Below, piece by piece: positions 31,604-48,595 of a DNA stretch of 64,000 bases. The first letter of the stretch is position 1, and each line of letters begins with the position of its first letter. Source of the DNA: Brevundimonas sp. AJA228-03 (GTDB lineage Bacteria > Pseudomonadota > Alphaproteobacteria > Caulobacterales > Caulobacteraceae); contig NZ_CP059297.1 of assembly GCF_017795885.1 (NCBI RefSeq), positions 2,671,001 through 2,735,000 on the forward strand, in the 5' to 3' direction. A program made the translations under genes and the position numbers. The notes beneath the pieces are model-generated. The model was not told the origin of the DNA. It ran no database searches and saw nothing but the letters and a program-made list of their open reading frames with translations.

Positions 31604-33964
31604 CTAGAAGTTGGCGCGGAGGGACACGCCGACGTAGCGTTCCGCGTCCTTGGCCGGGAAGTAGGCGATGTTGCCGGGGTTGGCCGCATTGGTGACGATC
31701 GACTCGCGCTGCATGCCGTTGACGAAGTCCTGATCGAACAGGTTCCGGACAAAGAGGCTGAGCGTGTAGCGATCATCGGCCGTGCTGGCACCGACCGTCA
31801 GATTGACCAGACCGTATCCGTCCTGAACCAGGCCCGGGTCCTGCTCGAGCGAGAATGTAACCTCGCTCTGCCGGGTGGCGGCCAGTTGGATAAAGCCGTT
31901 CAGATCTGTGCCGGGGATGGTGTCGTCGTACCGGATCGACAGATTACCCCGCCATTTCGGCGCATTGGGAAGCCGGCCGTCGACCACGTTCTGTGCGGTG
32001 CCGTTGCCAATCCGGAAGCAGGTGTTCACGGGTTGGGCCTGGCCGGCGGCGAGTGTGACCGCGGCGGCCTGGGCGGTCAGCGGGCATGACAGGCCGGTCG
32101 CATCGAAGGTGGCGTCCGCATAGGTGACGCCGCCGCTCAGGCTGATGCGATCCGTGAGGGCGAACTGGAACTCCACTTCAGCGCCCTTGGACACCGAGGA
32201 GCCGGCATTCGTCGGGATCGATACGTTCGGAGCGACCGTCGATTGCACCTGAAGGTTTTGATAGTCGGCGTAAAACAGTGCCGTGTTGACGCTCAGCCGT
32301 CCGTCGAGCCCCTGGGCTTTGTAGCCCAGCTCCCAGGCCTCTACAGTCTCCGGCAAGACCGCCACCTGGGTCGCGAAATTTGCAGTTAACTCAAAATCGT
32401 AGCCGCGGCCCTTATAACCGCGAGACCAGGTCAGATAGGTCTGGGCCTGCGCACTGAACTGGTACTGAAGCCCTAATTTGCCGGACAGATCAGTGTCGGC
32501 GACTTCTCCCCGACCGGAGGACGCCCCGAAGAGCAGACGATCGCCAGCGAACGGGGGCGTGGCCAAACGCAGCCCCTCGTAGCTCACTGTCTCGCGCTGC
32601 AAACGGGCACCGAAAAGGGCCGATAGCTGATCGGTCAGATGCCATTCCGCCTGACCGAACGCTGCCACATTTTCTGTCTTGGTGTTGGCGGTGTGGGCGG
32701 CAGAAGAAAAGAAAAAGGTCGGGCAGGGCTGACCGAAAGCGACCGGATTGGTCACGCAGCCGCCGACCCGGCGACGGAAGTCGCGATCCAGATCGAGGTT
32801 GAAGTAGAAGACGCCGACCGTGTACTGGACCGGCTGATTGGACGGCGAGGTCAGACGCAGTTCCTGGGTGAACTGGCCGATATCCAGCCCCCCGCCGTTG
32901 ATGCTGAAATAGCCGTTGCCGAACGGCACATAGAGCGGCGTCGCCGACTGGAAGCCGTCGACCTCGACATTGTTCTCGAGCGTCCAGGTCCGATAACCGG
33001 TCACCGAGGTCAGGGTGTAGTCACCGAGGGACAGGTTGGCTTCAAGCGACACACCCGACGACTTGGTGTCGGCGAAGGTCGTTCCGTCGGTTTCCACCGA
33101 ACGGTTCGTGGGCGAGGCCACGATCGGCGCGCGGATACCGGCGAGCACCGTGTTGGTCGTCAGATAGGGCACGAGTTGGCAGCAGGTGCTGTCGCTTTCG
33201 CGATAGTCCGCCGAGACCAGCAGGTTCAGGTCTTCACTCGGCTGCCATTCCAGCTTGCCGCGCAGACCGAAGACTTCACTGCCGTAGACCGTCTGGCCTG
33301 TTCCGGTATCCTGAACATAGCCTTCATCATCAGTATAGAAGCCGGTGAGGCGCCCACCGAGGGTGTCGGTGAGCGGGCCGGCGATCGTGCCCTTGAAACG
33401 ATATTCTCCGTGCTCGGCCGCAGTGATCTCGGCCGCTCCGGAAAGGTAGTCGGTGGGGCGCTGGGTGACGACATTCACCACCCCCGCCGTGGCATTCTTG
33501 CCGAACAGGGTGCCCTGCGGCCCGCGCAGGACCTCGACCCGCTCGATGTCGATCAGTTCCTGGAAACCCTGGCCCTGACGCGACAGGACCACGCCGTCGA
33601 CGACGAAGGAGACGGCCGATTCCAGACCGGTATTGAACAGGGCCGTACCGACGCCGCGGATCCGGACGTTGTTGTTTAGGTCGCTGGTCGACTGGGTGTA
33701 GGTCAGGGACGGGACCAGATTGGCGAGACCGCTGGTCCCCGTGATCTGGGAGTTGTCGAGCGTCTCGGCGCTGAGGGCCGTTACGGCGAGGGGCACGTCC
33801 TGCAAGCGCTGGCTGCGCTTCTGCGCGGTGACGATGATGTCCTCGACCTGCGCAGTGTCTTCGGATTGTGACGCGACGTCCTGGGCAAACGCGGGCGCAG
33901 CGGCCGCGGCGAGAACGAAGACTGCGGCACTGGCCATGAGGCGGCGGCTGACGTGAAACTGCAT
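31604..33964 (-). CDS. TonB-dependent receptor of the phenolic-glycoside gene cluster
   Basis: 786 residues with a signal peptide ending at AFA-Q (about residue 28). A TonB-box region VEDIIVTAQKRSQRLQDVPLAVTAL precedes the plug (VRIRGVGTALFNTGLESAVSFVVDGVVLSRQGQGFQELIDIERVEVLRGPQGTLFGKNATAGVVNV) and a barrel ending in R-A-N-F. This is the 'GPQGTLFGKNATAGVVN' group, common in sphingomonads and caulobacters for xenobiotic and plant-compound uptake. The upstream region carries the same regulatory block as the LysR/hydroxylase promoter at 41266-41335, so it is likely co-regulated with the catabolic operon 34120-41231. Confidence 0.92.
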   Translation of the reverse strand: MQFHVSRRLMASAAVFVLAAAAAPAFAQDVASQSEDTAQVEDIIVTAQKRSQRLQDVPLAVTALSAETLDNSQITGTSGLANLVPSLTYTQSTSDLNNNVRIRGVGTALFNTGLESAVSFVVDGVVLSRQGQGFQELIDIERVEVLRGPQGTLFGKNATAGVVNVVTQRPTDYLSGAAEITAAEHGEYRFKGTIAGPLTDTLGGRLTGFYTDDEGYVQDTGTGQTVYGSEVFGLRGKLEWQPSEDLNLLVSADYRESDSTCCQLVPYLTTNTVLAGIRAPIVASPTNRSVETDGTTFADTKSSGVSLEANLSLGDYTLTSVTGYRTWTLENNVEVDGFQSATPLYVPFGNGYFSINGGGLDIGQFTQELRLTSPSNQPVQYTVGVFYFNLDLDRDFRRRVGGCVTNPVAFGQPCPTFFFSSAAHTANTKTENVAAFGQAEWHLTDQLSALFGARLQRETVSYEGLRLATPPFAGDRLLFGASSGRGEVADTDLSGKLGLQYQFSAQAQTYLTWSRGYKGRGYDFELTANFATQVAVLPETVEAWELGYKAQGLDGRLSVNTALFYADYQNLQVQSTVAPNVSIPTNAGSSVSKGAEVEFQFALTDRISLSGGVTYADATFDATGLSCPLTAQAAAVTLAAGQAQPVNTCFRIGNGTAQNVVDGRLPNAPKWRGNLSIRYDDTIPGTDLNGFIQLAATRQSEVTFSLEQDPGLVQDGYGLVNLTVGASTADDRYTLSLFVRNLFDQDFVNGMQRESIVTNAANPGNIAYFPAKDAERYVGVSLRANF

Positions 33965-34034
33965 GGTGTCTCCCCATTTGCGTTCCCGCCATCGCCCGGA
34001 AAAATCCGAAGCGCAGCGGTTGTTGTTGCGTCAT

Positions 34035-34104
34035 CGTTGAACTGGGCGAGGTCCCATCGTCAAATGATTGAAAATGGCTACGTGCACCATTTCACTTATG
34101 ACTG
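34035..34104. promoter_or_regulatory. copy B of a duplicated regulatory block, upstream of the TonB receptor
   Basis: Positions 34058-34104 match 41289-41335 without gaps at 34 of 47 positions; the first 20 read CGTCAAATGATYGAAAWTGG in both. At equal distance outside the block both copies have an inverted GTTGA half-site (34036-34040 here), giving on the minus strand TTGACG, 17 bases, TCAACG, which may act as -35/-10 for the receptor. The receptor start is 94 bases away. It overlaps no gene. Confidence 0.65.
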
Positions 34105-34119
34105 TAGGTGCTGCGCCCT

Positions 34120-36087
34120 CTACCAGGCCTGAAGCCCGGCCCCTCGGGGATACAGAGGTTGCTGCGTGTCTGACCCGGCATCAGGAGCCTGTGCCTCTAC
34201 CTCGGCCATGGATGAGGGGAGCTCGAACGGCAGCCGCGCTCCGGGGGTCACCCGACCGGTGACGAAGTCGAAGAATGCTGCGTCCGACGCGCCGAACTCT
34301 CCGATCAGCGCGGTCGCAAGGGGCTTGATCTGGGTCAGGATGGCAGGACGATCGAGATAGATGCTGACAACAGTCGGGGTGACGGCGCCGGCCCTCTGCA
34401 CGGCGAGCAGGTCGGTGTTGTCGACCGGAAAGTCCAGCGCGCCCTCGTGGTGACGCTGGCCGAAGAAGTGGGCCGGATGGCTGGTGAACGGCGTCGCGAT
34501 CCGGACAAGGGCAAAGTCCGCCTCCGCCGGATCATCAACGACGGTGAATCCCCGCGCACGGGCCTCGTCCGTCGAGACCTTCCAGAGCCAGACCTTTTTC
34601 GCTTCCGGTCGAAGCGGCAGAACGCCGTCGCGGTTCTCCAGGAGCACGAGCGATCGTCGCTGCGCTTGGAGCGACTCCTGGCGATGTTCGGGCGAGCCGA
34701 CGATGCGTCGCGCTGCATCCGGATCGACATAGGGGTTTTCGAACAGACCCAATTCGAAGGTCTGGATCAGCAGCCGCATGACCGACTGGTCGATTCGCGC
34801 TTCCGGGATCCGTCCGGAGGCGACGACATCGATGATGACTGCGGTGTCCGCCACCCCGCCAAACTGGTCGACACCCGCCTCGATCGCCTTGGCGAACCGC
34901 TCCGATTTGGTCAGGTCTTCGACGCCCCACGGCATGCCGACACGGCGATAGTCGAGCGTCCCCGCCTCGCAGTCTGCCAAACAGTCGTCCGTGACCTTCC
35001 AGTCGGTCAGCACGATGCCGTCGAAGTCGCGGCCCTCACGCAGCAGTTCTGTGATCATCTGCCGGCTGAAGGCGGCCGCGACCCGCTCGGCCGGGCGGCC
35101 GTTGATTTCCAGGCCCTCCGGCGGGCGGGCGTAGGTGGGCATGACCGCGGCGACCCGCGCCCTGAACGCGCCGTCAAAGGCGCTCAGGTGGTCCTGGAAC
35201 CGGCCCCCGGGAAACACGATGTCCCGGCCATAGGGATTGTGAGCGTCGTAACCCTCAGGCTGGGCACCGTAGCCGACCCAGTGTTTGACGACGGCGGCAA
35301 CGCTCTGCGGACCCAGGCCGGATGTCCCGCCCTGGAAGCCTTCGATATAGGCGCCGACCATGTCCGACACTCTGTGCGGATCGTCGCCGAAGGTACCGCT
35401 GACCCGGGGCCAGCGCGGCTCGCTGGCCAGATCGGCCATCGGCGACAAGGCCATCCGGACCCCGATAGCGCGATACTCTTCCGATGCGACCTCACCGAAG
35501 CGGCGGACCAGATCGACATCGCCGATAGCGGCGAAGCCCGTGGTTTCGGGCCATTGCGAGAAGGCACCGGCGGCCACGCTCAATCCGAAGGTGGTCTGGA
35601 AATGGTTTCGGGGATCCGAGCTCAGTGTGAGAGGGATGCCCAGCCGGCTGGCCTCGGCCATGGCCTGGACCGTATTGCTGGTTTCCGCCAGCGCGCCCGC
35701 ATCACTGCTGCTCACCCGATGAATGATGAACCGGATGTCCTGATCGCGGATCATCGGTTCAACGCCGGCGAGGTCCCATTCCGCCCTGAGCACGCCCCCA
35801 ACGGTCGGGGGCGAGGCATGCACCATCAGACCGGCTTTTTCGTGCAGGGTCATGCGGTCCGTGAGATCCTCGGCCCGGGCTGCGGCGGGGAGCCGCCAGT
35901 CCTCGTAGGGGGTCAGCCGGCCGTCGCGATCAAGATCCCTGAACCGCAGACCGTCGACCGTCAGCACGGTGGCGCTTCGAACGCCCAGATCCGGCTGGCT
36001 GACGCTCCTGCCGAAGCTGTCGGGCGAAGCGGATGCGCAGCCGGACATGGCCGCGCCGAGGAGGGCCAGGACGGTCAGACCTCTCAT
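34120..36087 (-). CDS. GH3-family glycosidase, lipoprotein
   Basis: 655 residues. N-terminal lipobox LLGAAMSGC (Cys17). The GH3 N-domain is present: ...DRMTLHEKAGLMVHASPP, the substrate region PLTLSSDPRNHF and DLASEPRWPRVSGTFGDDPHRVSDMVGAYIEGFQG, VVKHWVGYG (KH motif), and the nucleophile Asp362 in DGIVLTDWKV. The C-domain (RRSLVLLENRDGVLPLRPEAKKVWLW) follows. GH3 enzymes remove beta-linked glucose or xylose from oligosaccharides or aryl glycosides. Being last in an operon of aromatic-degradation genes, it probably releases a phenolic aglycone at the cell surface or in the periplasm. It follows the MFS gene by 10 bases. Confidence 0.9.
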   Translation of the reverse strand: MRGLTVLALLGAAMSGCASASPDSFGRSVSQPDLGVRSATVLTVDGLRFRDLDRDGRLTPYEDWRLPAAARAEDLTDRMTLHEKAGLMVHASPPTVGGVLRAEWDLAGVEPMIRDQDIRFIIHRVSSSDAGALAETSNTVQAMAEASRLGIPLTLSSDPRNHFQTTFGLSVAAGAFSQWPETTGFAAIGDVDLVRRFGEVASEEYRAIGVRMALSPMADLASEPRWPRVSGTFGDDPHRVSDMVGAYIEGFQGGTSGLGPQSVAAVVKHWVGYGAQPEGYDAHNPYGRDIVFPGGRFQDHLSAFDGAFRARVAAVMPTYARPPEGLEINGRPAERVAAAFSRQMITELLREGRDFDGIVLTDWKVTDDCLADCEAGTLDYRRVGMPWGVEDLTKSERFAKAIEAGVDQFGGVADTAVIIDVVASGRIPEARIDQSVMRLLIQTFELGLFENPYVDPDAARRIVGSPEHRQESLQAQRRSLVLLENRDGVLPLRPEAKKVWLWKVSTDEARARGFTVVDDPAEADFALVRIATPFTSHPAHFFGQRHHEGALDFPVDNTDLLAVQRAGAVTPTVVSIYLDRPAILTQIKPLATALIGEFGASDAAFFDFVTGRVTPGARLPFELPSSMAEVEAQAPDAGSDTQQPLYPRGAGLQAW

Positions 36088-36097
36088 CTTCTCGCGC

Positions 36098-37444
36098 TCA
36101 CACTACGGACGGTTCAGGTGCGGGTCGCAACGATGGCGGCGACGGCCTCCGGATCCCCAATGTCACGGCCGCCAGCAACTGGGCGACAGCCAGCATCCCA
36201 AGCGTTGCCCAGAGCGCGGCGGGCAGGCCCTGGGTGAAGCCGATCAGCATGGGTCCGGCCACGCCGCCGATCCGGTTCACCGCCACGGCCACGCCGACCG
36301 CGGTGCTGCGAAGGCCGGTCTCGTAGCTCATGGCGATATGATTGTTCATCACAGCCTGGGCACCGAAGATGAAGAAGCCGGTCGCGGCGACAGCGACCAT
36401 GGCGAAGGGCGTGTTCAATGTCGCCGCCAGGCTGATCAGCGACAGGGCACCGCCGACGAACCCCCAGCAAATCACAGGCACCCGCTCGAATCGATCGGCC
36501 AGCCAGCCGCCCGCCAGACCACCGAAGATCTGCATCGTCATCAGAAGCGAGCCATATCCGAAGGCCGTGCGTACCCCTGCCCCTTCCGCTAGGACGATCG
36601 AAGGCAGCCAGCCCGTCAGGCCGTGGATGCAGAGCAGGCTCAGCGCACCCGCCACCCAGATCGAAACAGTCGTGCTCAGGTAACGCGGCGCCAGCAGGCT
36701 GACGAAGGCACCCTTCCCGCTCGACGGCTCACCGGACTGGAAGGCCGCGCCGACATAGGCGGCGGCGCGGTCGGGGCGGGCGCGGGACAGGATGCGGGCG
36801 ACCTGATCCCACCGCTCGCGGGACGCCAGAAACCGCACCGATTCCGGTAGCATGGCGTGAGCCAGCAGGGCGACCGGAATACCGAGACCGCCAATCAGGT
36901 AAAGGGCGCGCCACCCCCACTCCGGCGCGATCAGCAGTCCAGCAAGACCTGCTGCGATGCCACCGAGCGAGAACGGCAGGACGAACGCCAGGGTCGCGAA
37001 CCGATTCGCACACCGACTCGGCGCCCACTCGTTGATATAGACGAAGGCGAGAGGCGACAGCATGCCCAGCGCGACGCCGAGCGCCAGTCGGATGGCGCAA
37101 AACACTTCAAACGAATTGGCAAAGATCGCGAGGGCCAGGCTGGCCAGACCGAGAAGCCAGACCGCCCCCAGGGTGGTCGCGCGACGCCCGAACCGGTCCG
37201 CCAGCGGCCCCTGCAGCAGAGCTCCGGTCGCCAGCCCGACCAGCCCGATCGACAGCATCATGCCGATCTGCGGAGCCCCCAGCCCCCACTCCTGCCGCAC
37301 ATAGGGCGCGACATAGGCGGCATTGAACAGGTCATATCCGTCGATGAACAGTATGGCTCCGATCAGCACGGCGAACCGGATGTGGAATCCAGTCAGCGGT
37401 GCGTCCCGCATTTCGGCGGCGACGTCGATCACCGGTTCGCTCAT
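36098..37444 (-). CDS. MFS transporter, aromatic acid:H+ symporter (AAHS) type
   Basis: 448 residues with 12 predicted membrane segments. The AAHS signature FIDGYDLFNAAYVAPY in helix 1 holds the Asp typical of benzoate and hydroxybenzoate carriers, followed by GxLADRFGRR between helices 2 and 3 (QGPLADRFGRRATTLGAV) and a second copy GGWLADRFERVPVI. Import of an aromatic acid or phenol across the inner membrane fits the hydroxylase, dioxygenase and hydrolase encoded just upstream in the same operon. Gap to the FAH gene is 53 bases. Confidence 0.87.
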   Translation of the reverse strand: MSEPVIDVAAEMRDAPLTGFHIRFAVLIGAILFIDGYDLFNAAYVAPYVRQEWGLGAPQIGMMLSIGLVGLATGALLQGPLADRFGRRATTLGAVWLLGLASLALAIFANSFEVFCAIRLALGVALGMLSPLAFVYINEWAPSRCANRFATLAFVLPFSLGGIAAGLAGLLIAPEWGWRALYLIGGLGIPVALLAHAMLPESVRFLASRERWDQVARILSRARPDRAAAYVGAAFQSGEPSSGKGAFVSLLAPRYLSTTVSIWVAGALSLLCIHGLTGWLPSIVLAEGAGVRTAFGYGSLLMTMQIFGGLAGGWLADRFERVPVICWGFVGGALSLISLAATLNTPFAMVAVAATGFFIFGAQAVMNNHIAMSYETGLRSTAVGVAVAVNRIGGVAGPMLIGFTQGLPAALWATLGMLAVAQLLAAVTLGIRRPSPPSLRPAPEPSVV

Positions 37445-37497
37445 GGCTTCGTTTCCTCTTGAGGCGTCCGGTCTTGCGCCGGATCGCGGATGAATGA

Positions 37498-38334
37498 TCA
37501 GGCGGAGGCGTCTTCCGAAACTGGATTGCTCAGGACGCCGAGGCCGGTGACAGTCACTTCAACCACATCCCCGGGCTTGAGCCAGAGCGGCGGCGTCCGC
37601 TTGGCCCCGACCCCGCCCGGCGTCCCCGTCAGGATGACGTCGCCTGGACTCAGGGTCGTGAAACCCGAGCAGTAGGCGATGATGTCGGCGATCGAAAAGA
37701 TCATCTGGTCGAAACCGGCGTCCTGCACCACCTCGCCGTTGACGCGGGTCGTGATCCGGCACCGGTCCAGCGGGCCCATCTCATCCGGCGTCATCAACCA
37801 GGGGCCAAGCGCACAGGTATCGGGAAAGTTCTTGCCGGGGGTGAATTGGTGGGTGTGCCACTGCCAGTCACGCACCGAAGCGTCATTGGCGATTGTATAG
37901 CCGGCGACGTGATCCATGGCCGCTTCCCGCGAGATGCGACGCCCGCCCCTTCCGATGACCACGGCCAGTTCGCCCTCATAGTCGAGATCGGTGGACTCCT
38001 GTGGTCGCACGATGGGCTGGCCGCCGGCGACGAGCGTGTCGGCCCAGCGCGTGAAGATCGAGGGATGATCGACCTTCGCGCGGCCGGTCTCCTTGCGGTG
38101 ATCCTCGTAGTTGTGACCGACGCACAGGATCTTGCCGGGATTGGGCAGGACCGGCAGCAAGGTCACGTCCGACAGTGCGATCGACTCGCCGCTCGGGATG
38201 ACGGCGGCGACGCCTCCCGAGGCCAGGGCCGCCTTGAGGTCGGCGGGTCCGGAGGCCGGCGCCACCGCGATGCGGTCGCCTTCAAGCACGCCGTAGCCGG
38301 CGCGGCCCTGGCGTTCAAAACTGACGATCTTCAC
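37498..38334 (-). CDS. fumarylacetoacetate hydrolase family protein
   Basis: 278 residues from a GTG start at 38334 with AGGAG seven bases upstream. It has an N-terminal DUF2437-like part (VKIVSFERQGRAGYGVLEGDRI) and the FAH catalytic domain: KILCVGHNYEDHRKETGR, the metal ligands in LDYEGELAVVIGRGGRRI, HTHQFTPGKNFPDTCALGPWLMTPDEM and GDVILTGTPGGVG. These enzymes hydrolyse C-C bonds in 1,3-diketo acids or related ring-cleavage products, or act as decarboxylases or isomerases in meta-cleavage pathways. In this operon it should act after the extradiol dioxygenase. Confidence 0.88.
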   Translation of the reverse strand: MKIVSFERQGRAGYGVLEGDRIAVAPASGPADLKAALASGGVAAVIPSGESIALSDVTLLPVLPNPGKILCVGHNYEDHRKETGRAKVDHPSIFTRWADTLVAGGQPIVRPQESTDLDYEGELAVVIGRGGRRISREAAMDHVAGYTIANDASVRDWQWHTHQFTPGKNFPDTCALGPWLMTPDEMGPLDRCRITTRVNGEVVQDAGFDQMIFSIADIIAYCSGFTTLSPGDVILTGTPGGVGAKRTPPLWLKPGDVVEVTVTGLGVLSNPVSEDASA

Positions 38335-38347
38335 GGATCGGCTCCTG

Positions 38348-39241
38348 TCAGGCGGCCGGCAGCGCAGGCGCGCCGGGGAAACGGAATTTGCGTTCGGCGA
38401 CGGCCAGGGCGGCCACGTCCTTGTCTGTGACCCCCCATTGATCGATGCGGTTCTGCGGCCAGGTCCAGTCCTCGGGCGCGCCGGTCCGATAGTCCTCTCC
38501 AACCTTCTCGACCGCGGTCGAATACTCGATCACGGGCCCGAAGGGGGCGATATAGTAGGCGAAGACATTGTTGCCGGGACCATGGCGTCCGGGCCCCCAT
38601 GCGGCCGTCAAACCGTAGTCCCGCATCCGCCCGATGCCGCGCATGACCGCGTCGATATCGACCATCTCGAAGGCGATGTGATTGAGCGTGGCGACGCCGG
38701 CGCGGGCGAAGGCGATCGAATGGTGCGAGTCGTCACACCGCACGAACACCATGCCCTTCGTCCGGTCCGAAACGCGGAAACCCAGGACCCGTTCGACGAA
38801 ATCGCCGGACGCCTCGGCGTCCCGGGCGTTAAAAACGACATGGGTGAGGCGGTTCGGCATGTCGGGGCATCCCTCCAGCCGTTCATTGCTCTGAACGCCG
38901 GACAGGAAGCGGAACCGCTCGCCGTCGGGAGCGGTCACAAGGATGCCGCGGCCGGATCCGGTTTCACCCGTCGCATCGACCCGCTCGACCGGCGCTCCTT
39001 CCGCCCCGGCCGAAGCCTCGATCCGATCGATCTCGGCCTCGGACGCGATGAAGGTGACCGACTGAACCGTCGGTGCATCTGCCTCGGTCAGGGCCAGCAG
39101 ATAGGCGTCGTCCCCCGCGCCGCGGAGGTGCCAGGTGTCGGCCTCACGCGTCGCCGGAGCCATGCCCCAGTGCTCGGTCAGGAAGTGAGCGGCCGCGCCG
39201 GCGCCCGGAAGCGCAAGCTCGATGCTGCGGAGTCTGGTCAT
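38348..39241 (-). CDS. extradiol ring-cleavage dioxygenase-like VOC protein
   Basis: 297 residues with two vicinal-oxygen-chelate modules. The C-terminal module carries a full 2-His-1-carboxylate set: His134 (RLTHVVFNA), His188 (TLNHIAFEM) and Glu239 (GPVIEYST), as in catechol 2,3-dioxygenase-type enzymes. The segment GPGRHGPGNNVFAYYIAPFG matches the active-site loop of type I extradiol enzymes. Expected reaction: meta cleavage of a catechol made by the hydroxylase. The start overlaps the GlcG-like stop by four bases (ATGA), so the genes are translationally coupled. Confidence 0.87.
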   Translation of the reverse strand: MTRLRSIELALPGAGAAAHFLTEHWGMAPATREADTWHLRGAGDDAYLLALTEADAPTVQSVTFIASEAEIDRIEASAGAEGAPVERVDATGETGSGRGILVTAPDGERFRFLSGVQSNERLEGCPDMPNRLTHVVFNARDAEASGDFVERVLGFRVSDRTKGMVFVRCDDSHHSIAFARAGVATLNHIAFEMVDIDAVMRGIGRMRDYGLTAAWGPGRHGPGNNVFAYYIAPFGPVIEYSTAVEKVGEDYRTGAPEDWTWPQNRIDQWGVTDKDVAALAVAERKFRFPGAPALPAA

Positions 39242-39690
39242 GCGCGGGCCTCCGGGGCGGCGCCCGGATCGGCGACCAGGCCGGCGGCCGCGATGCCCGC
39301 CACCGCGCAGCGTTCATCGAGGTCGGAGGTGTCGCCGCTGATCCCGACCGCCCCAAGGATCGCGCCGGCCGCGTCGCGGATCAGCACCCCGCCGGGCGCG
39401 AGTGCCATCTGGCCCTCCGTCACGGCCGAAAGGGAGGCGAAGAAGACCGGCGACTGCTGGGCGCGCGCGGCGATGGCCCGACTGCCCATTCCCATGCCCA
39501 GGGCTCCGGCGGCCTTCGCCGTGGCGATCGCAGAGCGAAACAGGCTGGCCGTCTCCTGACGATGGATCGTCAGGACATGTCCGCCGCTGTCCAGCACCAC
39601 CACGCTGAGCGGCTTGGCTCCATCCTCCCGCGCCTTCGCGAAGGCGGCTTGCGTGATGGTCAGGGCGAGATCGAGCGTCAGGCCGGACAT
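39238..39690 (-). CDS. GlcG/HbpS heme-binding-like protein
   Basis: 150 residues of the PF03928 family: LTLDLALTITQAAFAKAREDGAKPLSVVVLDSGGHVLTIHRQE, then SIATAKAAGALGMGM, and a Gly-rich LAPGGVLIRDAAGAILGAVGISGDTSDLDERCA core. Family members bind heme or small ligands and often sit in catabolic operons with an unclear role. It overlaps the hydroxylase stop by 13 bases and the dioxygenase start by four, which fixes it as part of the pathway rather than a neighbour by chance. Confidence 0.87.
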   Translation of the reverse strand: MSGLTLDLALTITQAAFAKAREDGAKPLSVVVLDSGGHVLTIHRQETASLFRSAIATAKAAGALGMGMGSRAIAARAQQSPVFFASLSAVTEGQMALAPGGVLIRDAAGAILGAVGISGDTSDLDERCAVAGIAAAGLVADPGAAPEARA

Positions 39691-41231
39691 AGGGTCTCCT
39701 CGGCGGCGACGGCGTGTCTGAAGTCGCGGGCGAGACCCGACACCGCGCCCGTTCCGCTCGCCGTCCCGAAAACATAGAAGTCGGGGCGCAACAGGACCGC
39801 GTCGGCCTGGTGCTCATCCAGCCAGCGACCGAGATCTCCGGCCGCGTCTTCCAGGTCCATCCCGATGCGAAAATGACGGATGCGGAGGCGCTGCAGGAGC
39901 GTCGGCTCCACACCCCCCTGCTCGCCCCGCGACAGGATCACCAGCCCGCCGCCGGTGGCGTCATCCAGCAAGCCTTCCTGCTGCGCCAGCCGGACGGAAG
40001 GCTGGATGAAGCGCTTGCCGGCACCGGGGCTGTCGAGCGTCAGGCCCCGGATCGGCGTGATCAGGTCGGCGGCGGTCCGCACGGGGTCGCCCTGCCTCGC
40101 GCGCATTTCGGCGTCACGCTCGGCAGCACGGACCGGATCGAGCATGCAGATATAGCGCCCGGCCTCGACCGCGCTGGCGATGACCGAACGGACCTGGGGT
40201 TCGCGCTCCTGCTGATAGCCGTTCAGCAGACCGTCGGGAGCGGTGCCGGACAGGACCCTCTCCAGCTTCCACGCCAGGTTGGCGACATCCCGCATGCCAT
40301 GACACATGCCCTGGCCGAAGAACGGCGGCGTCTGGTGCGCCGCATCGCCGGCCAGAAACACCCGGCCGACCTTCCAGGTCTCGGCGATCAGGCCATGAAA
40401 GCGATAGGTGGTCGCGCGCACGATCCGGCTGGGTGCCGATCCGACCCAGGGCGCCACCAGGGCCTCTACGGCATCAGCGTCCAGCGTTGTCTCGTCTTCT
40501 CCGGGAAGCAGCATGAACTCCCAGCGGCGGTGGTTGCCCCTGCCGGGAACGATGGTCGCCGGGCGTCGCGGGTCGCATAGCATGATGGAGAGTTGCTGCA
40601 GATCTGCGCCCTCGGGCACATGGTGGAAGCCCGGAAACACCAGAGGCCCGTCGACCTCGGCGTCCACCACCAGCCAGGGCTCCTCGAAATCCAGATCATC
40701 CAGGACCACGCCCAGCGCCTTGCGCGTCGGGCTGCTGGCCCCGTCGCAGGCGATCACCCAGCGGGCTGAGACAACAGTCTCGCCCTCCGGCGCGGCCAAC
40801 CGCAAGCGGACGCCCCGGGCGTCCTGGTCGATCCCGAGGCATTCGACGCCGAGGCGCAGATCGACCTCAGCGAACCGGCCCAGCCCCTCGCGAAGCACGG
40901 CCTCGAGCTCTGGCTGGTAGAAGAAATAGTCGCCGGACCAGCCGAAGGGCCGGGGTCGGCCTGCGGTGCCCATGTAGCGGATGACGCCACCGTCGGCGCC
41001 GATATGCATATGGCCCTGGGTGTCGCGCACGAGCGACGAAACGCGGTCGACCAGGCCGGCGCTCTGGAACAGGCGCATGACCTCGTGGTCGATGTGCACG
41101 GCGCGCGGCAGGGGATGCGGTTCAGCGACGCGTTCGACGACCAGCGTCCTCACCCCGGCCTTGCCGAGCAGATTGGCCGCCAACCCACCGACCGGTCCGC
41201 AGCCGATGATGACGACATCGTAGTCCAGCAC
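39678..41231 (-). CDS. FAD-dependent aromatic hydroxylase (MhpA/PheA-type)
   Basis: 517 residues from the GTG at 41231, a start that gives the usual family length and places the FAD motif at residues 9-17 (IIGCGPVGG). Other signatures: a DG-type segment WVIACDGASSPTRKALG, and FLAGDAAHQTPPFFGQGMCHGMRDVANLAWKL, the GD motif that binds the FAD ribityl chain. A C-terminal thioredoxin-like domain is present (from about residue 400). This flavoprotein group hydroxylates phenols using NAD(P)H and O2, giving catechols for extradiol cleavage. It is the first gene of the six-gene operon and divergent from the LysR gene. Confidence 0.9.
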   Translation of the reverse strand: MLDYDVVIIGCGPVGGLAANLLGKAGVRTLVVERVAEPHPLPRAVHIDHEVMRLFQSAGLVDRVSSLVRDTQGHMHIGADGGVIRYMGTAGRPRPFGWSGDYFFYQPELEAVLREGLGRFAEVDLRLGVECLGIDQDARGVRLRLAAPEGETVVSARWVIACDGASSPTRKALGVVLDDLDFEEPWLVVDAEVDGPLVFPGFHHVPEGADLQQLSIMLCDPRRPATIVPGRGNHRRWEFMLLPGEDETTLDADAVEALVAPWVGSAPSRIVRATTYRFHGLIAETWKVGRVFLAGDAAHQTPPFFGQGMCHGMRDVANLAWKLERVLSGTAPDGLLNGYQQEREPQVRSVIASAVEAGRYICMLDPVRAAERDAEMRARQGDPVRTAADLITPIRGLTLDSPGAGKRFIQPSVRLAQQEGLLDDATGGGLVILSRGEQGGVEPTLLQRLRIRHFRIGMDLEDAAGDLGRWLDEHQADAVLLRPDFYVFGTASGTGAVSGLARDFRHAVAAEETLCPA

Positions 41232-41265
41232 GCGGTTCCATCCCTCGGTTTTCTCGTTGGTATCG

Positions 41266-41335
41266 TGTTGACAGTCGCCGACACCCTCCGTCAAATGATC
41301 GAAATTGGGGTAGTGGTTCGTTTTCCTTATGGCTG
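41266..41335. promoter_or_regulatory. copy A of a duplicated regulatory block, between hydroxylase and LysR genes
   Basis: The region holds CGTCAAATGATCGAAATTGG at 41289-41308 and continues to CTTATGGCTG at 41326-41335, which includes the LysR start codon. An inverted half-site GTTGA (41267-41271) lies 17 bases outside. On the plus strand TTGACA (41268-41273), 17 bases, TCAAAT could serve LysR; on the minus strand TTGACG, 17 bases, TCAACA could serve the hydroxylase operon. Divergent overlapping promoters with an inverted repeat are standard for LysR regulation. Confidence 0.65.
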
Positions 41336-42228
41336 TCGAAGCGTCCCAGATCGCCAACCTGCTGGCGATCGCCCGCCATGGCTCCTTCACCCGCGCCGCA
41401 GCGGAAAAGGGCATGTCCCAGCCCGCCCTGTCGAACAGCATCGCCCTGCTTGAGCAAAGGCTGGGCGTGCAGGTGCTGGAAAGAAGTCGACGCGGATCAA
41501 CCCTGACAGCCTTCGGCGAGATCCTCGTTCGTCGCGCCGAGGGCGTGCAATCGCTGCTGTCAGACGCCGAGGCCGAGGTTCGCAGTCACGCTCTGGGCAT
41601 ATCGGGCCCCCTGAGAATCGGGGCCACGCCCAGCGTGCTGGCAAGCCTTCTGCCCAATGCGCTCCGGCTTCTGGACAACGGCCAGACGCCGCTGGATCTC
41701 GAGATTGTCGATGGTCTGGACGGCCGGCTGGTGCCGATGCTGAGGTCCGGGAAGATCGACATCATCGTCGGCCCTGTCGACGAGATGCTCGGCGGCACGG
41801 ATGACGTCGTCGAAGCGGTTCTGTTCGATGACCCCTTCTGGTTGGCCGCTGGCCCGGCCAGCCCGTTTTATGACGCGAAATCCCTGTCGCTCGGCCAACT
41901 GGCGGACGCGCCCTGGGCCTTGCCGCGGGAAGGAAGCACCTATCGGCACCACGTCGAAGCTCTGTTCATGACCTCGGGCGTCGCCTGGCCCAGGGACTGC
42001 ATTCTCGTGAACGCCCTGCCCTTGCTCGAAAGTCTCGTCACGCATACGTCGCGCATCACCCTGGTGTCTCGCGCCCAGCTGACCCGACCGCCTCAGCCCT
42101 TCCGCGTGATCACCTTGCAAGGGGCCGGCGGACGCCGCATTGGATACAAGCTCCGCCGAGGCGGCCGTCCGGGCCCCCTGACGCAACAGTTCATCGAGGC
42201 GCTGAGAGCGTCAGCCTCTGAGTTGTGA
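41329..42228 (+). CDS. LysR-family transcriptional regulator of the catabolic operon
   Basis: 299 residues. The winged helix-turn-helix is clear (SQIANLLAIARHGSFTRAAAEKGMSQPALSNSIALLEQRLGVQVLERSRRG), followed by the two-lobed effector domain (GPLRIGATPSVLASLLPNALRLL ... DIIVGPVDEM). It is divergent from the hydroxylase gene with 97 bases between starts, the classic arrangement for a LysR activator responding to a pathway intermediate. The conserved block it overlaps is repeated before the TonB receptor, so it probably controls both units. Confidence 0.92.
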   Translation: MAVEASQIANLLAIARHGSFTRAAAEKGMSQPALSNSIALLEQRLGVQVLERSRRGSTLTAFGEILVRRAEGVQSLLSDAEAEVRSHALGISGPLRIGATPSVLASLLPNALRLLDNGQTPLDLEIVDGLDGRLVPMLRSGKIDIIVGPVDEMLGGTDDVVEAVLFDDPFWLAAGPASPFYDAKSLSLGQLADAPWALPREGSTYRHHVEALFMTSGVAWPRDCILVNALPLLESLVTHTSRITLVSRAQLTRPPQPFRVITLQGAGGRRIGYKLRRGGRPGPLTQQFIEALRASASEL

Positions 42229-42700: not shown

Positions 42701-43804
42701 ATGGCAAGGGAGAGTGGCAAGGTGGCATCGCAGGCAGCATTGAAATTGGTGGGCAAGGAAGACGGCGACAAGCAGCGCGCGCTGGAGGCGGCGATCGCAC
42801 AGATCGATCGGGCCTTTGGCAAGGGCTCGGTCATGAAGCTGGGCAAGGGCGGGGTCGCCGACGTGATCCCCTCGGTGTCCACCGGCTCGCTGGGTCTGGA
42901 CATGGCGCTCGGCATCGGCGGCCTGCCGCGCGGACGGGTGATCGAGGTGTTCGGTCCCGAATCCTCGGGCAAGACGACCCTGGCCCTGCACACCGTGGCC
43001 GAGATCCAGAAGTCGGGCGGCACGGCCGCCTTCGTCGACGCCGAACACGCGCTCGACCCCGGCTATGCCCAGAAGCTGGGCGTCAACCTCGACGACCTGC
43101 TGGTCTCCCAGCCCGACACGGGCGAACAGGCGCTGGAGATCGTCGACACCCTGGTGCGGTCGGGAGCCGTGGACATCGTGGTCGTCGATTCCGTCGCCGC
43201 CCTGACGCCCCGCGCCGAGATCGAGGGCGAGATGGGCGACAGCCTGCCGGGTCTTCAGGCCCGTCTGATGTCGCAGGCCCTGCGCAAGCTGACCGCCTCC
43301 ATTTCCAAGTCCAACTGCATCGTCCTGTTCATCAACCAGATCCGGCACAAGATCGGCGTGATGTACGGCTCGCCGGAGACGACGACCGGCGGCAATGCGC
43401 TGAAGTTCTACGCCTCGGTGCGTCTCGACATCCGCCGCACCGGCGCGATCAAGGACCGCGACGAGGTCGTGGGCAACACCACCCGGGTCAAGGTCGTCAA
43501 GAACAAGGTCGCCCCGCCGTTCCGCGAGGTCATCTTCGACATCATGTACGGCGAGGGCATCTCCAAACTGGGCGAGATCATCGATCTGGGCGTCAAGGCC
43601 GGGATCATCGAGAAGTCCGGCTCCTGGTTCTCCTATGACTCGACCCGCATCGGTCAGGGCCGCGAGAACGTCCGTGCCTTCCTCAAGGCCAACCCCGACA
43701 TGGCCGACGCGATCGAGCAGAAGGTGCGCAGGTCCACCGACAAGATCGCCGACGAATTGCTGGGCACGCCCGAGCCCGACGAAGGCCAGGACCTCGAGGG
43801 CTGA
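42701..43804 (+). CDS. recA: recombinase RecA
   Basis: 367 residues. Walker A GPESSGKT at residues 85-92, Walker B region [24 protein letters not shown], the MSQALRKL/loop 1 segment, and loop 2 with [25 protein letters not shown] are all intact, followed by an acidic C-terminal tail (PDEGQDLEG). RecA pairs homologous strands and triggers LexA self-cleavage. No recX lies downstream in this window. A LexA-like site sits in the promoter. Confidence 0.97.
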
Positions 43805-45937: not shown

Positions 45938-48595
45938 ATGTCCAGCCTGAAACAGATCCGTTCGACCTTCCTCGACTTCTTCGCAGCCGACGGACACGCC
46001 CGGGTCCACTCCGCCCCGCTGGTGCCGCAGAACGATCCGACGCTGATGTTCGTCAATGCGGGCATGGTGCCGTTCAAGGACTATTTCACCGGCGCGGCGA
46101 CCCCGCCCTGGCCGCGCGCGACCTCTTCACAGAAATGCGTCCGCGCCGGCGGCAAGCACAACGACCTGGACAACGTCGGCTATACGGCGCGCCACCTGAC
46201 CTTTTTCGAGATGCTGGGGAATTTCTCCTTTGGCGACTATTTCAAGGAACACGCCATCGAACAGGCGTGGAAACTGGTCACTCAGGGATATGGCCTCGAC
46301 GCGAAACGCCTGCTGGTCACCGTCTATATCGACGACGACGAGGCCGCCGCGATCTGGAAGAAGGTCACCGGCTTTTCCGACGACCGGATCATCCGCATCG
46401 CCGGCTCCGACAACTTCTGGGCCATGGGCGATTCCGGTCCCTGCGGTCCCTGCACCGAGATCTTCTGGGACTACGGCGACCATGTCGCGGGTGGCCCTCC
46501 CGGTTCGCCGGACGAGGATGGCGACCGCTATGTCGAGATCTGGAACAACGTCTTCATGCAGTTCGAGAAGGAGAACGACGAGATCGTTCGCAGCCTTCCC
46601 AAGCCCAGCGTCGACACCGGCATGGGGCTGGAGCGGATGACCAGCGTGCTGCAGGGCAAGAACTCGGTGTTCGACACCGACCTGTTCCAGACCCTGATCG
46701 CCGCCTCCGAGGACGCCACCTCGACCAGGGCCGAGGGTGACCGCGCCGCCAGTCACCGCGTCATCGCCGACCACCTGCGGTCGTCGTCCTTCCTGATCGC
46801 CGACGGGGTCACCCCGTCGAACGAGGGGCGCGGCTATGTCCTGCGCCGCATCATGCGGCGCGCCATGCGTCACGCCCACCTGCTGGGGGCCGCCGATCCG
46901 CTGATGCACCGTCTGGTCCCGACGCTGGTCGGCGAAATGGGCGAGGCCTATCCCGAACTGGCCCGCGCCCAGGCGAGCATCGAGGACACGCTGAAACAGG
47001 AGGAAATCCGCTTCCGCACCACCCTGGGGCGCGGCATGGGCCTGCTGGAGGACGCCACGGCGGACCTGGCCGAAGGCGGCGTCATCCCCGGCCGCACCGC
47101 CTTTACCCTCTACGACACCTATGGCTTCCCGCTGGACCTGACCCAGGACGAGGCGCGCCGTCGCGGCTTCACCGTCGACACCGAGGCCTTCGACGCGGCC
47201 ATGGAAGAGCAGAAGAGCCGCGGCAAGGCCAACTGGAAGGGCTCGGGCCAGACCGCCTCGACCGGCGAATGGCTGGCGCTGAAGGACCGTCTGGGACCGA
47301 CCGTCTTCACCGGCTACGACGCCGTCGACGGCTCGGGCGAGGTGCTGGCGATCCTGAAGGACGGCACCGCCGCCGACAGCGTCGAACCCGGCGAAACCGC
47401 AGAGGTCCTGTTCGACCAGACCCCCTTCTATGGCGAAGGCGGCGGCCAGGCCGGCGATCGCGGCGAGATCGAATGGTCGGGGGGCAGCGCCCGCGTCCTC
47501 GATGTCCAGAAGCCGACCGGCGACCTCCATGCCCATACGATCGAGGTCACCGCGGGCACGCTCGCCATCGGCACCCGCGCCCAGCTGCGCGCCGCCCCCG
47601 ACGCGCGCCTGACCACCCGCGCCAACCACTCCGCCGCCCACCTGGTCCATGCGGCGCTGAAGAATGTGCTGGGCCCCCACGTCGCCCAGAAGGGCCAGCT
47701 GGTCGATGCCGAGCGCATGCGCTTCGACTTCAGCCACAACGCCCCCCTGACCGAGGACGAACTGGCCCGGATCGAGACCGAGGTGAACGCGGTCATCCGC
47801 CAGAACCTGCCCGCCGAAACCAAGCTGATGGGCCCGCAGGACGCCATCGAGGCCGGCGCCGTCGCCCTGTTCGGAGAGAAATACGGCGACGAGGTCCGCG
47901 TCCTGACCCTGGGTCGCAGCCTGACCGGCGACACGCCCTATTCCGTCGAACTGTGCGGCGGCACCCATGTGGCCCGCACCGGCGACATCGGCCTGTTCAG
48001 GATCACGTCAGAGACCGGCATCGCCGCCGGCATCCGCCGCGTCGAGGCCCTGACCGGCGAGGCCGCGCGCCAGTTCCTGCTGGCCCAGGCCGGCGTGGCC
48101 AGATCCCTGGCCCAGACCTTCAAGGTCCAGCCCCTGGACGTCCCCGCCCGCGTCGAGGCCCTGTCGACCGAACGCAAGACGCTGGAGAAACAGGTCGCCG
48201 AGCTGAAGAAGCAGCTGGCCCTGGGTGGCGGCGGTTCGGCCCCGGCCGCCCCGGAAGAGATCAACGGCATAAAACTGATCGCCCGCATCCTCGACGGCGT
48301 CGACGGCAAGGGTCTGCGCGGCGTGGCCGAGGATTTCAGGAAACAGGTCGGCTCCGGCGTCATCGCCCTGATCGGCGTCACCGACGGCAAGGCGGCCGTC
48401 ACCGTGGCCGCGACCTCGGACATCACCGCCAATGAGGGGGGCCGGATCAACGCCGCCGACCTCGCCCGCGCCGCTGTCCTCGCCATGGGCGGCCAGGGCG
48501 CCGGCGGCAAGGCCGACTTCGCCCAGGGCGGCGCCCCGGACGGCTCCATGGCCGAAGCCGGTCTGGCCGCAGTCAGGGCGGCGCTGGCGGGATAA
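45938..48595 (+). CDS. alaS: alanyl-tRNA synthetase
   Basis: 885 residues, full length. Class II aminoacylation core ([51 protein letters not shown], ...[17 protein letters not shown]), the editing domain zinc sites [12 protein letters not shown] and ELCGGTHV, and the C-terminal C-Ala domain with a coiled-coil ([23 protein letters not shown]) are all visible. It charges tRNA-Ala and clears mischarged Ser/Gly. It comes shortly after recA in many alphaproteobacteria; here the DUF4268 gene has come to lie between the two. Confidence 0.97.

Follow-up and report, generated by a model that had tools for sequence, protein, structure and literature searches.

The usual arrangement of a gene controlled by a LysR-type regulator, as outlined in the excerpts of PMC4834489 available to us, places a box near −65, where it overlaps the promoter of the regulator, with further contacts that reach the −35 region of the target; an extended form of the recognition motif, CTATA-n9-TATAG, is given in the accessible part of PMC5002191. 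Here we describe a site that may fit this arrangement in 64,000 nucleotides of the genome of Brevundimonas sp. AJA228-03 (contig NZ_CP059297.1, positions 2,671,001 to 2,735,000; hereafter the window), where a block of 47 bp occurs once between a lysR gene and a divergent aromatic hydroxylase gene and once before the gene of a TonB-dependent receptor. We estimate at about 0.88 the probability that this block is the operator of the LysR encoded at 41329–42228, used twice and joining an importer to genes of aromatic degradation. A shared LysR operator linking uptake and catabolism had been proposed in a preliminary description of this DNA, and the proposal is supported by sequence comparison, namely by the orthologous loci, the orientation of the sites and their co-occurrence with LysR.

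The two copies, at 41289–41335 (copy 1) and 34058–34104 (copy 2), are identical without gaps at 34 of 47 bases. This match, already reported in the preliminary description, is borne out by simulation: in 40 Markov-1 simulated sequences of 64 kb the best match to copy 1 had a mean of 25.1 and a maximum of 28, and in the window itself copy 1 has a next-best match of 26 and copy 2 one of 28. The length of 70 bp originally given to the block has to be reduced to 47 bp, outside which the flanks are no more alike than shuffled sequence (right, 20 against a mean of 19.3; left, 18 against 19.25). A 15-base core, GTCAAATGATYGAAA, is found without mismatch at only these two places in the 3.04-Mb genome, where a search allowing up to two mismatches adds two other matches (two mismatches each) for a total of four. 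When up to three mismatches are allowed in the window, just the two blocks are retrieved, each with 0 mismatches, two core matches at this tolerance being a not unusual count (at least two in 18 of 100 shuffles). The G+C content of the blocks is 45% and 40%, against 66% for the cluster.

The block is also present in all six other fetched loci whose LysR is at least 62% identical to that of the window (62–98%), and these seven loci together are hereafter called the main group. A scan of genome contigs for LysR yielded four loci, from a Brevundimonas metagenome-assembled genome (MAG; 98%), Caulobacter radicis (69%), a Sphingomonas (62%) and a Psychromonas (28%), in the last of which (L038) the block was not found. 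An alignment of three LysRs, used as the query at E 1e-50, found hits in 2 of 385 genomes of the class, 3 of 390 of the family, 6 of 82 of f56 (the family of G323, with G323, G896 and G899 close) and, in the Sphingomonas family, 4 of 397, of which three are diverged. Carriers are thus few among the genomes searched, and within this sample the regulon is rare and patchy. The protein databases hold 155 relatives of LysR at E 1e-60, no match was obtained on plasmids at E 1e-40, and a search for the hydroxylase in 149 relatives besides the own genome found one at 96% (G034), the next best being at 43%.

The clusters of seven genomes (two Brevundimonas, C. radicis, a Sphingomonas and three f56 genomes) contain 15 sites in all. 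One lies over the lysR start in every main-group locus, with the lysR ATG at offset 40 in 6 of the 6 loci other than the window. A site stands before a TonB receptor in the window, the MAG, C. radicis, G323, G896 and G899; the Sphingomonas has sites before a porin-like Alginate_exp protein and before the hydroxylase instead, and in every main-group lineage one site precedes a receptor or a porin. The divergent gene that shares the common site with lysR is the hydroxylase in the window and the MAG, an MFS transporter in C. radicis and f56, and a binding-protein-like gene (a weak NMT1 match) in the Sphingomonas. Gene order thus varies between loci, and the orientation of the site relative to its target is constant, the targets starting approximately 56–170 bases away (starts picked from open frames, some of them ambiguous; that of the porin may be at 212). 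Conservation in orthologous clusters, named in the preliminary description as a check on its reading, was accordingly found at 7 of 7 main-group loci, before receptor, porin or catabolic genes despite the differing order.

The comparison also covered the specificity of the site. A matrix built from seven sites of three genomes gave scores of 41.2–49.4 to four held-out sites (two of G323 and one each of G896 and G899, the lysR sites of G896 and G323 being identical), the maximum in 30 simulated 64-kb sequences being 15.4. The receptor sites of G896 and G899, which are truncated at the ends of the fetched stretches, were identified by an exact left half and a pattern search. A two-box pattern with up to two mismatches matched 16 times in the seven LysR-positive genomes, 15 times within the cluster, and its reversed control once. 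With up to one mismatch allowed in 249 genomes (150 relatives of the window, its own genome included, and 99 of G323, G323 included), exact matches occurred in G000, G034, G323, G896 and G899 alone, all of which carry the LysR; the other genomes contributed 14 one-mismatch matches (2 among the 150 and 12 among the 99, six of these 12 belonging to one repeat in G849), and the reversed pattern 4 (1 + 3). The 244 genomes without an exact match include G886, G890 and G892, whose LysR is at 39–40%.

In the window, the minus strand reads, from the hydroxylase downward, hydroxylase, HbpS-like protein, VOC protein, fumarylacetoacetate-hydrolase (FAH) family protein, MFS transporter, GH3 glycoside hydrolase and TonB receptor, with lysR divergent. 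Its product has both the helix-turn-helix and the substrate-binding domain of LysR (PF00126 and PF03466). The hydroxylase GTG (41231) and the lysR ATG (41329) are separated by 97 bases; copy 1 sits in this gap and enters lysR by 7 bases. Copy 2 starts 15 bases past the GH3 stop codon; its position 94 bases before the receptor ATG at 33964 (93 bases lie between) and that of copy 1 in the divergent lysR promoter are as first described. Lying between the GH3 stop and the receptor start, copy 2 can act as a separate promoter control for the receptor. The features are as follows.

41289..41335, plus strand: predicted operator copy 1, within the divergent promoter of lysR and the hydroxylase gene; includes the start codon of lysR at offset 40
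34058..34104, plus strand: predicted operator copy 2, flanked by the stop codon of GH3 and the start of the TonB receptor, which is itself on the minus strand
41329..42228, plus strand: LysR-type regulator; PF00126 (6.2e-19), PF03466 (1.2e-26)
39678..41231, minus strand: FAD-binding aromatic hydroxylase; start GTG at 41231; PF01494; NF004829 above cut-off
39238..39690, minus strand: HbpS-like protein; PF03928
38348..39241, minus strand: extradiol-dioxygenase-like VOC protein; PF00903; TIGR02295 and TIGR03211 below cut-off; best PDB sequence match 3b59
37498..38334, minus strand: FAH family protein; start GTG at 38334; PF01557
36098..37444, minus strand: MFS transporter, nearest to the aromatic acid/H+ symport family; PF07690; TIGR00895 best but below cut-off
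34120..36087, minus strand: GH3 glycoside hydrolase; PF00933, PF01915; best PDB sequence match 9ul7, a beta-glucosidase
31604..33964, minus strand: TonB-dependent outer-membrane receptor; PF00593, PF07715
41268..41296, plus strand: putative lysR promoter TTGACA-N17-TCAAAT, read from sequence; overlaps the operator; not strict sigma-70
41266..41294, minus strand: putative hydroxylase promoter TTGACG-N17-TCAACA, read from sequence; weak and tentative

Beyond lysR follow an open reading frame that we take to be RecA-like (42701–43804) and another that is presumably AlaRS-like (45938–48595), so that the rare catabolic cluster adjoins housekeeping genes.

Alignment of the 11 non-redundant main-group sites resolves two conserved boxes, GTCMAATRAT and YTTATGRCT, whose spacing is fixed, the second lying 26 bases beyond the first on the side away from the target gene. 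GTC, AAT, AT, a T at offset 25, and ATG and CT within offsets 40–45 are invariant, and conservation drops to background on both sides of the block. Seen on the target strand, the block has TTGAC or TTGGAC at its end, and the GTCMAATRAT end probably adjoins or belongs to the target −35 region; YTTATGRCT is presumed to be the anchoring box. With two boxes in 47 bp, the block compares with a LysR site of 50–60 bp extending from near −65 to −35, its placement relative to the transcription starts being a predicted one. Reading into lysR, TTGAC[A/C]-N17-TCAAAT was seen at all lysR-side copies, where it is probably the lysR promoter. Its TTGAC[A/C] explains a GTTGA that the preliminary description had correctly located, in either copy, 17 bases to the left of the block (34036–34040 and 41267–41271) and had taken for one of a pair of inverted half-sites; the flank is probably the lysR −35 box, and at that spacing it is conserved at lysR-side copies. 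Since in other genera GTTGA is not found at this distance in the copies before receptor, porin and hydroxylase genes, we rejected it as a half-site of the regulator. The lysR-side copies of C. radicis, G323, G896 and G899 contain a perfect CATA-N9-TATG dyad, a close likeness of the extended CTATA-n9-TATAG as it appears in the accessible part of PMC5002191; copy 1 has T-N11-A with one of four arm pairs.

The lysR start codon is, by this comparison, itself part of the predicted operator. When the exact left half was used as the sole probe, ATGRCT was found at +39 in every complete cluster site except the G896 receptor site (ATGACA). Of the 15 sites, eight do not stand before a lysR gene (the MAG receptor site, one of the eight, is identical to that of the window), and yet the ATG is at the same offset in 8 of 8 and ATGRCT in 7 of 8, so that the ATG appears to be kept by the site and not only by the gene. 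As the anchoring box at lysR contains the start codon, the first codons, ATG GCT, would belong at once to the coding sequence and to the operator. In four lineages lysR has GCT as its second codon, a triplet that accounts there for 4.9–9.1% of alanine codons (as counted in 4–8 cluster genes per lineage), with a product of 2.6e-5 from which G899 (1.6%) was excluded. Among 30 of 120 listed LysR relatives, 17 of the 18 at 62% identity or more start with MA and one with MS, and the 12 at 46–57% comprise eight MT, two MA and two with neither; at the level of the protein sequences, an MT start fits ATGRC. We consider it fairly probable that the start and second codons are operator DNA with TATG as its right arm, that recognition dictates Met-Ala (GCT), that the occupied operator covers the start of the frame, and that the two-site regulon moves between alphaproteobacterial families as one cassette of regulator and operators. 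The same bases would then serve as coding start and as operator, a natural example of overlapping constraint. No LysR site over a start codon was recognised among the publications listed by the literature searches, as judged by titles and abstracts. A second ATGGCT is present in the receptor copy (window 34074–34079, +15 of the left half); it is shared by the Brevundimonas MAG and occurs in no site of other genera.

We propose that copy 1 controls a likely operon extending from the hydroxylase through HbpS, VOC, FAH and MFS to GH3, as well as lysR itself, and that copy 2 gives the TonB receptor a LysR-dependent start of its own. With inducer, LysR positioned over both boxes would activate the operon and the receptor together, and LysR bound over the lysR promoter and start codon may limit its own synthesis. 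The inducer is probably an aromatic compound or a pathway intermediate; the GH3 enzyme, whose best PDB sequence match is a beta-glucosidase, together with the genes for ring cleavage, would point to an aryl glycoside or an aromatic. A search of the literature for a link between glycosides, ring cleavage, FAH, TonB and LysR found none that points to a substrate, and none of the publications searched concerns this LysR regulon. The regulon gains a defined predicted operator, open to testing and searching, by which the receptor and GH3 are tied to a ring-cleavage pathway; given this tie, the cargo of the receptor is probably a glycosylated or free aromatic that is degraded there.

In three genomes of the Sphingomonas family (G1210, G1232 and G1195) a LysR of 33–41% identity lies in tandem, not divergent, with a hydroxylase (56–62%), HbpS, VOC, FAH and a receptor 28–30% identical to that of the window; no match to GH3 or MFS was found in the fetched stretches. 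Their operon-side sites score 18.4, 30.4 and 12.9, two of them above the chance maximum, and G1232 has a second site (19.7), before the receptor, with the box TATA, not TATG. The perfect CATA-N9-TATG is also present at the operon sites of G1210 and G1195. In G1195 the best-scoring match (13.1) has no open frame behind it, and this genome is weak support for the operator. The first gene before the hydroxylase genes in three Sphingomonas-family genomes (L087 10043–11332), which we take to be amidohydrolase-like, hints at a different first step of the pathway. Three g325 genomes have a LysR at 39–40%, and the same gene set is visible in two of them, the third being at a contig end. A motif common to these genomes was sought and rejected, the best matches lying under the chance maximum. 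Upstream of their LysR there is a TAAGAT-N6-ATCTTA dyad (L045 1425–1471; same region in L046 and L047), which may be a different operator.

Several of these results weigh against the LysR operator. No strict sigma-70 promoter was found in 33900–41600, so that promoter positions are tentative, and no −10 box common to the receptor copies was seen. T-N11-A at the register of the dyad is present in 4 of the 11 non-redundant main-group sites, divided into 4 of 5 lysR-side copies (copy 1 included) and 0 of 6 others (copy 2 lacking it). The operon site of G1195 and the best sites of the g325 genomes (8.5–13.4) fall below the chance maximum of 15.4. The LysR search covered part of the 244 other genomes of the pattern control, and GCT at codon 2 may be due in part to a general tendency of early codons to end in A or T. 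The block might instead be the operator of another regulator, possibly a global one, under whose control both units stand by chance, and comparison is indeed what ties the block to LysR; we regard this as unlikely, however, because exact matches in the 249 genomes scanned are restricted to those with this LysR, and 15 of the 16 pattern matches in the seven LysR-positive genomes fall in its cluster.

It is still harder to believe that the block works as an RNA, either a leader or an antisense element. The conserved ATG inside it and the start of copy 2 just behind the GH3 stop codon would suit such a role, but the ATG is read on the strand directed away from the target, and the gene content on that side varies between sites, both points being argued from layout. 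A segmental duplication, by which the lysR promoter and 5′ end were copied before the receptor, would make the likeness a matter of recent origin and not of function, and the similarity does extend across the lysR ATG, as the preliminary description had pointed out in suggesting it. That overlap, however, needs no duplication, as the ATG is kept at sites without lysR and the flanks are unrelated beyond the block. Moreover, the 54-residue open reading frame from the receptor-side ATG is unlike LysR, conservation is limited to the same 47 columns across genera, and the receptor sites of C. radicis, G323, G896 and G899 match the receptor site of the window at 32–35 of 47 bases, its own lysR copy at 34. 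The pair of sites is thus old, and we find a recent duplication highly improbable. The LysR operator remains our preferred reading.

Among described systems, FdeR of Herbaspirillum is likewise a LysR regulator responding to an aromatic plant compound, naringenin. Its degradation operon reportedly neighbours the regulator. The present cluster differs by the addition of a TonB receptor and a GH3 enzyme. PheR of Sphingobium SHPJ-2 is similar in that one regulator is linked to aromatic catabolism and to TonB-receptor expression, but, according to the accessible part of PMC13273656, it is a repressor discussed with the IclR family, and its receptor link is transcriptomic and not a shared operator. 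With canonical LysR systems, as far as they are represented in the excerpts of PMC4834489, PMC8407307 and PMC5002191, the locus shares the LysR domains, a divergent target and the overlap of the site with the presumed promoter of the regulator, and probably also a two-part site near 50 bp in length and the T-N11-A of the lysR-side copy. It differs from them in that the receptor copies lack T-N11-A at that register, that a second full site serves a separate receptor gene, and that the site includes the start codon of the regulator. The regulon is of a well-known kind, and its noteworthy part is the start codon held inside the predicted operator.

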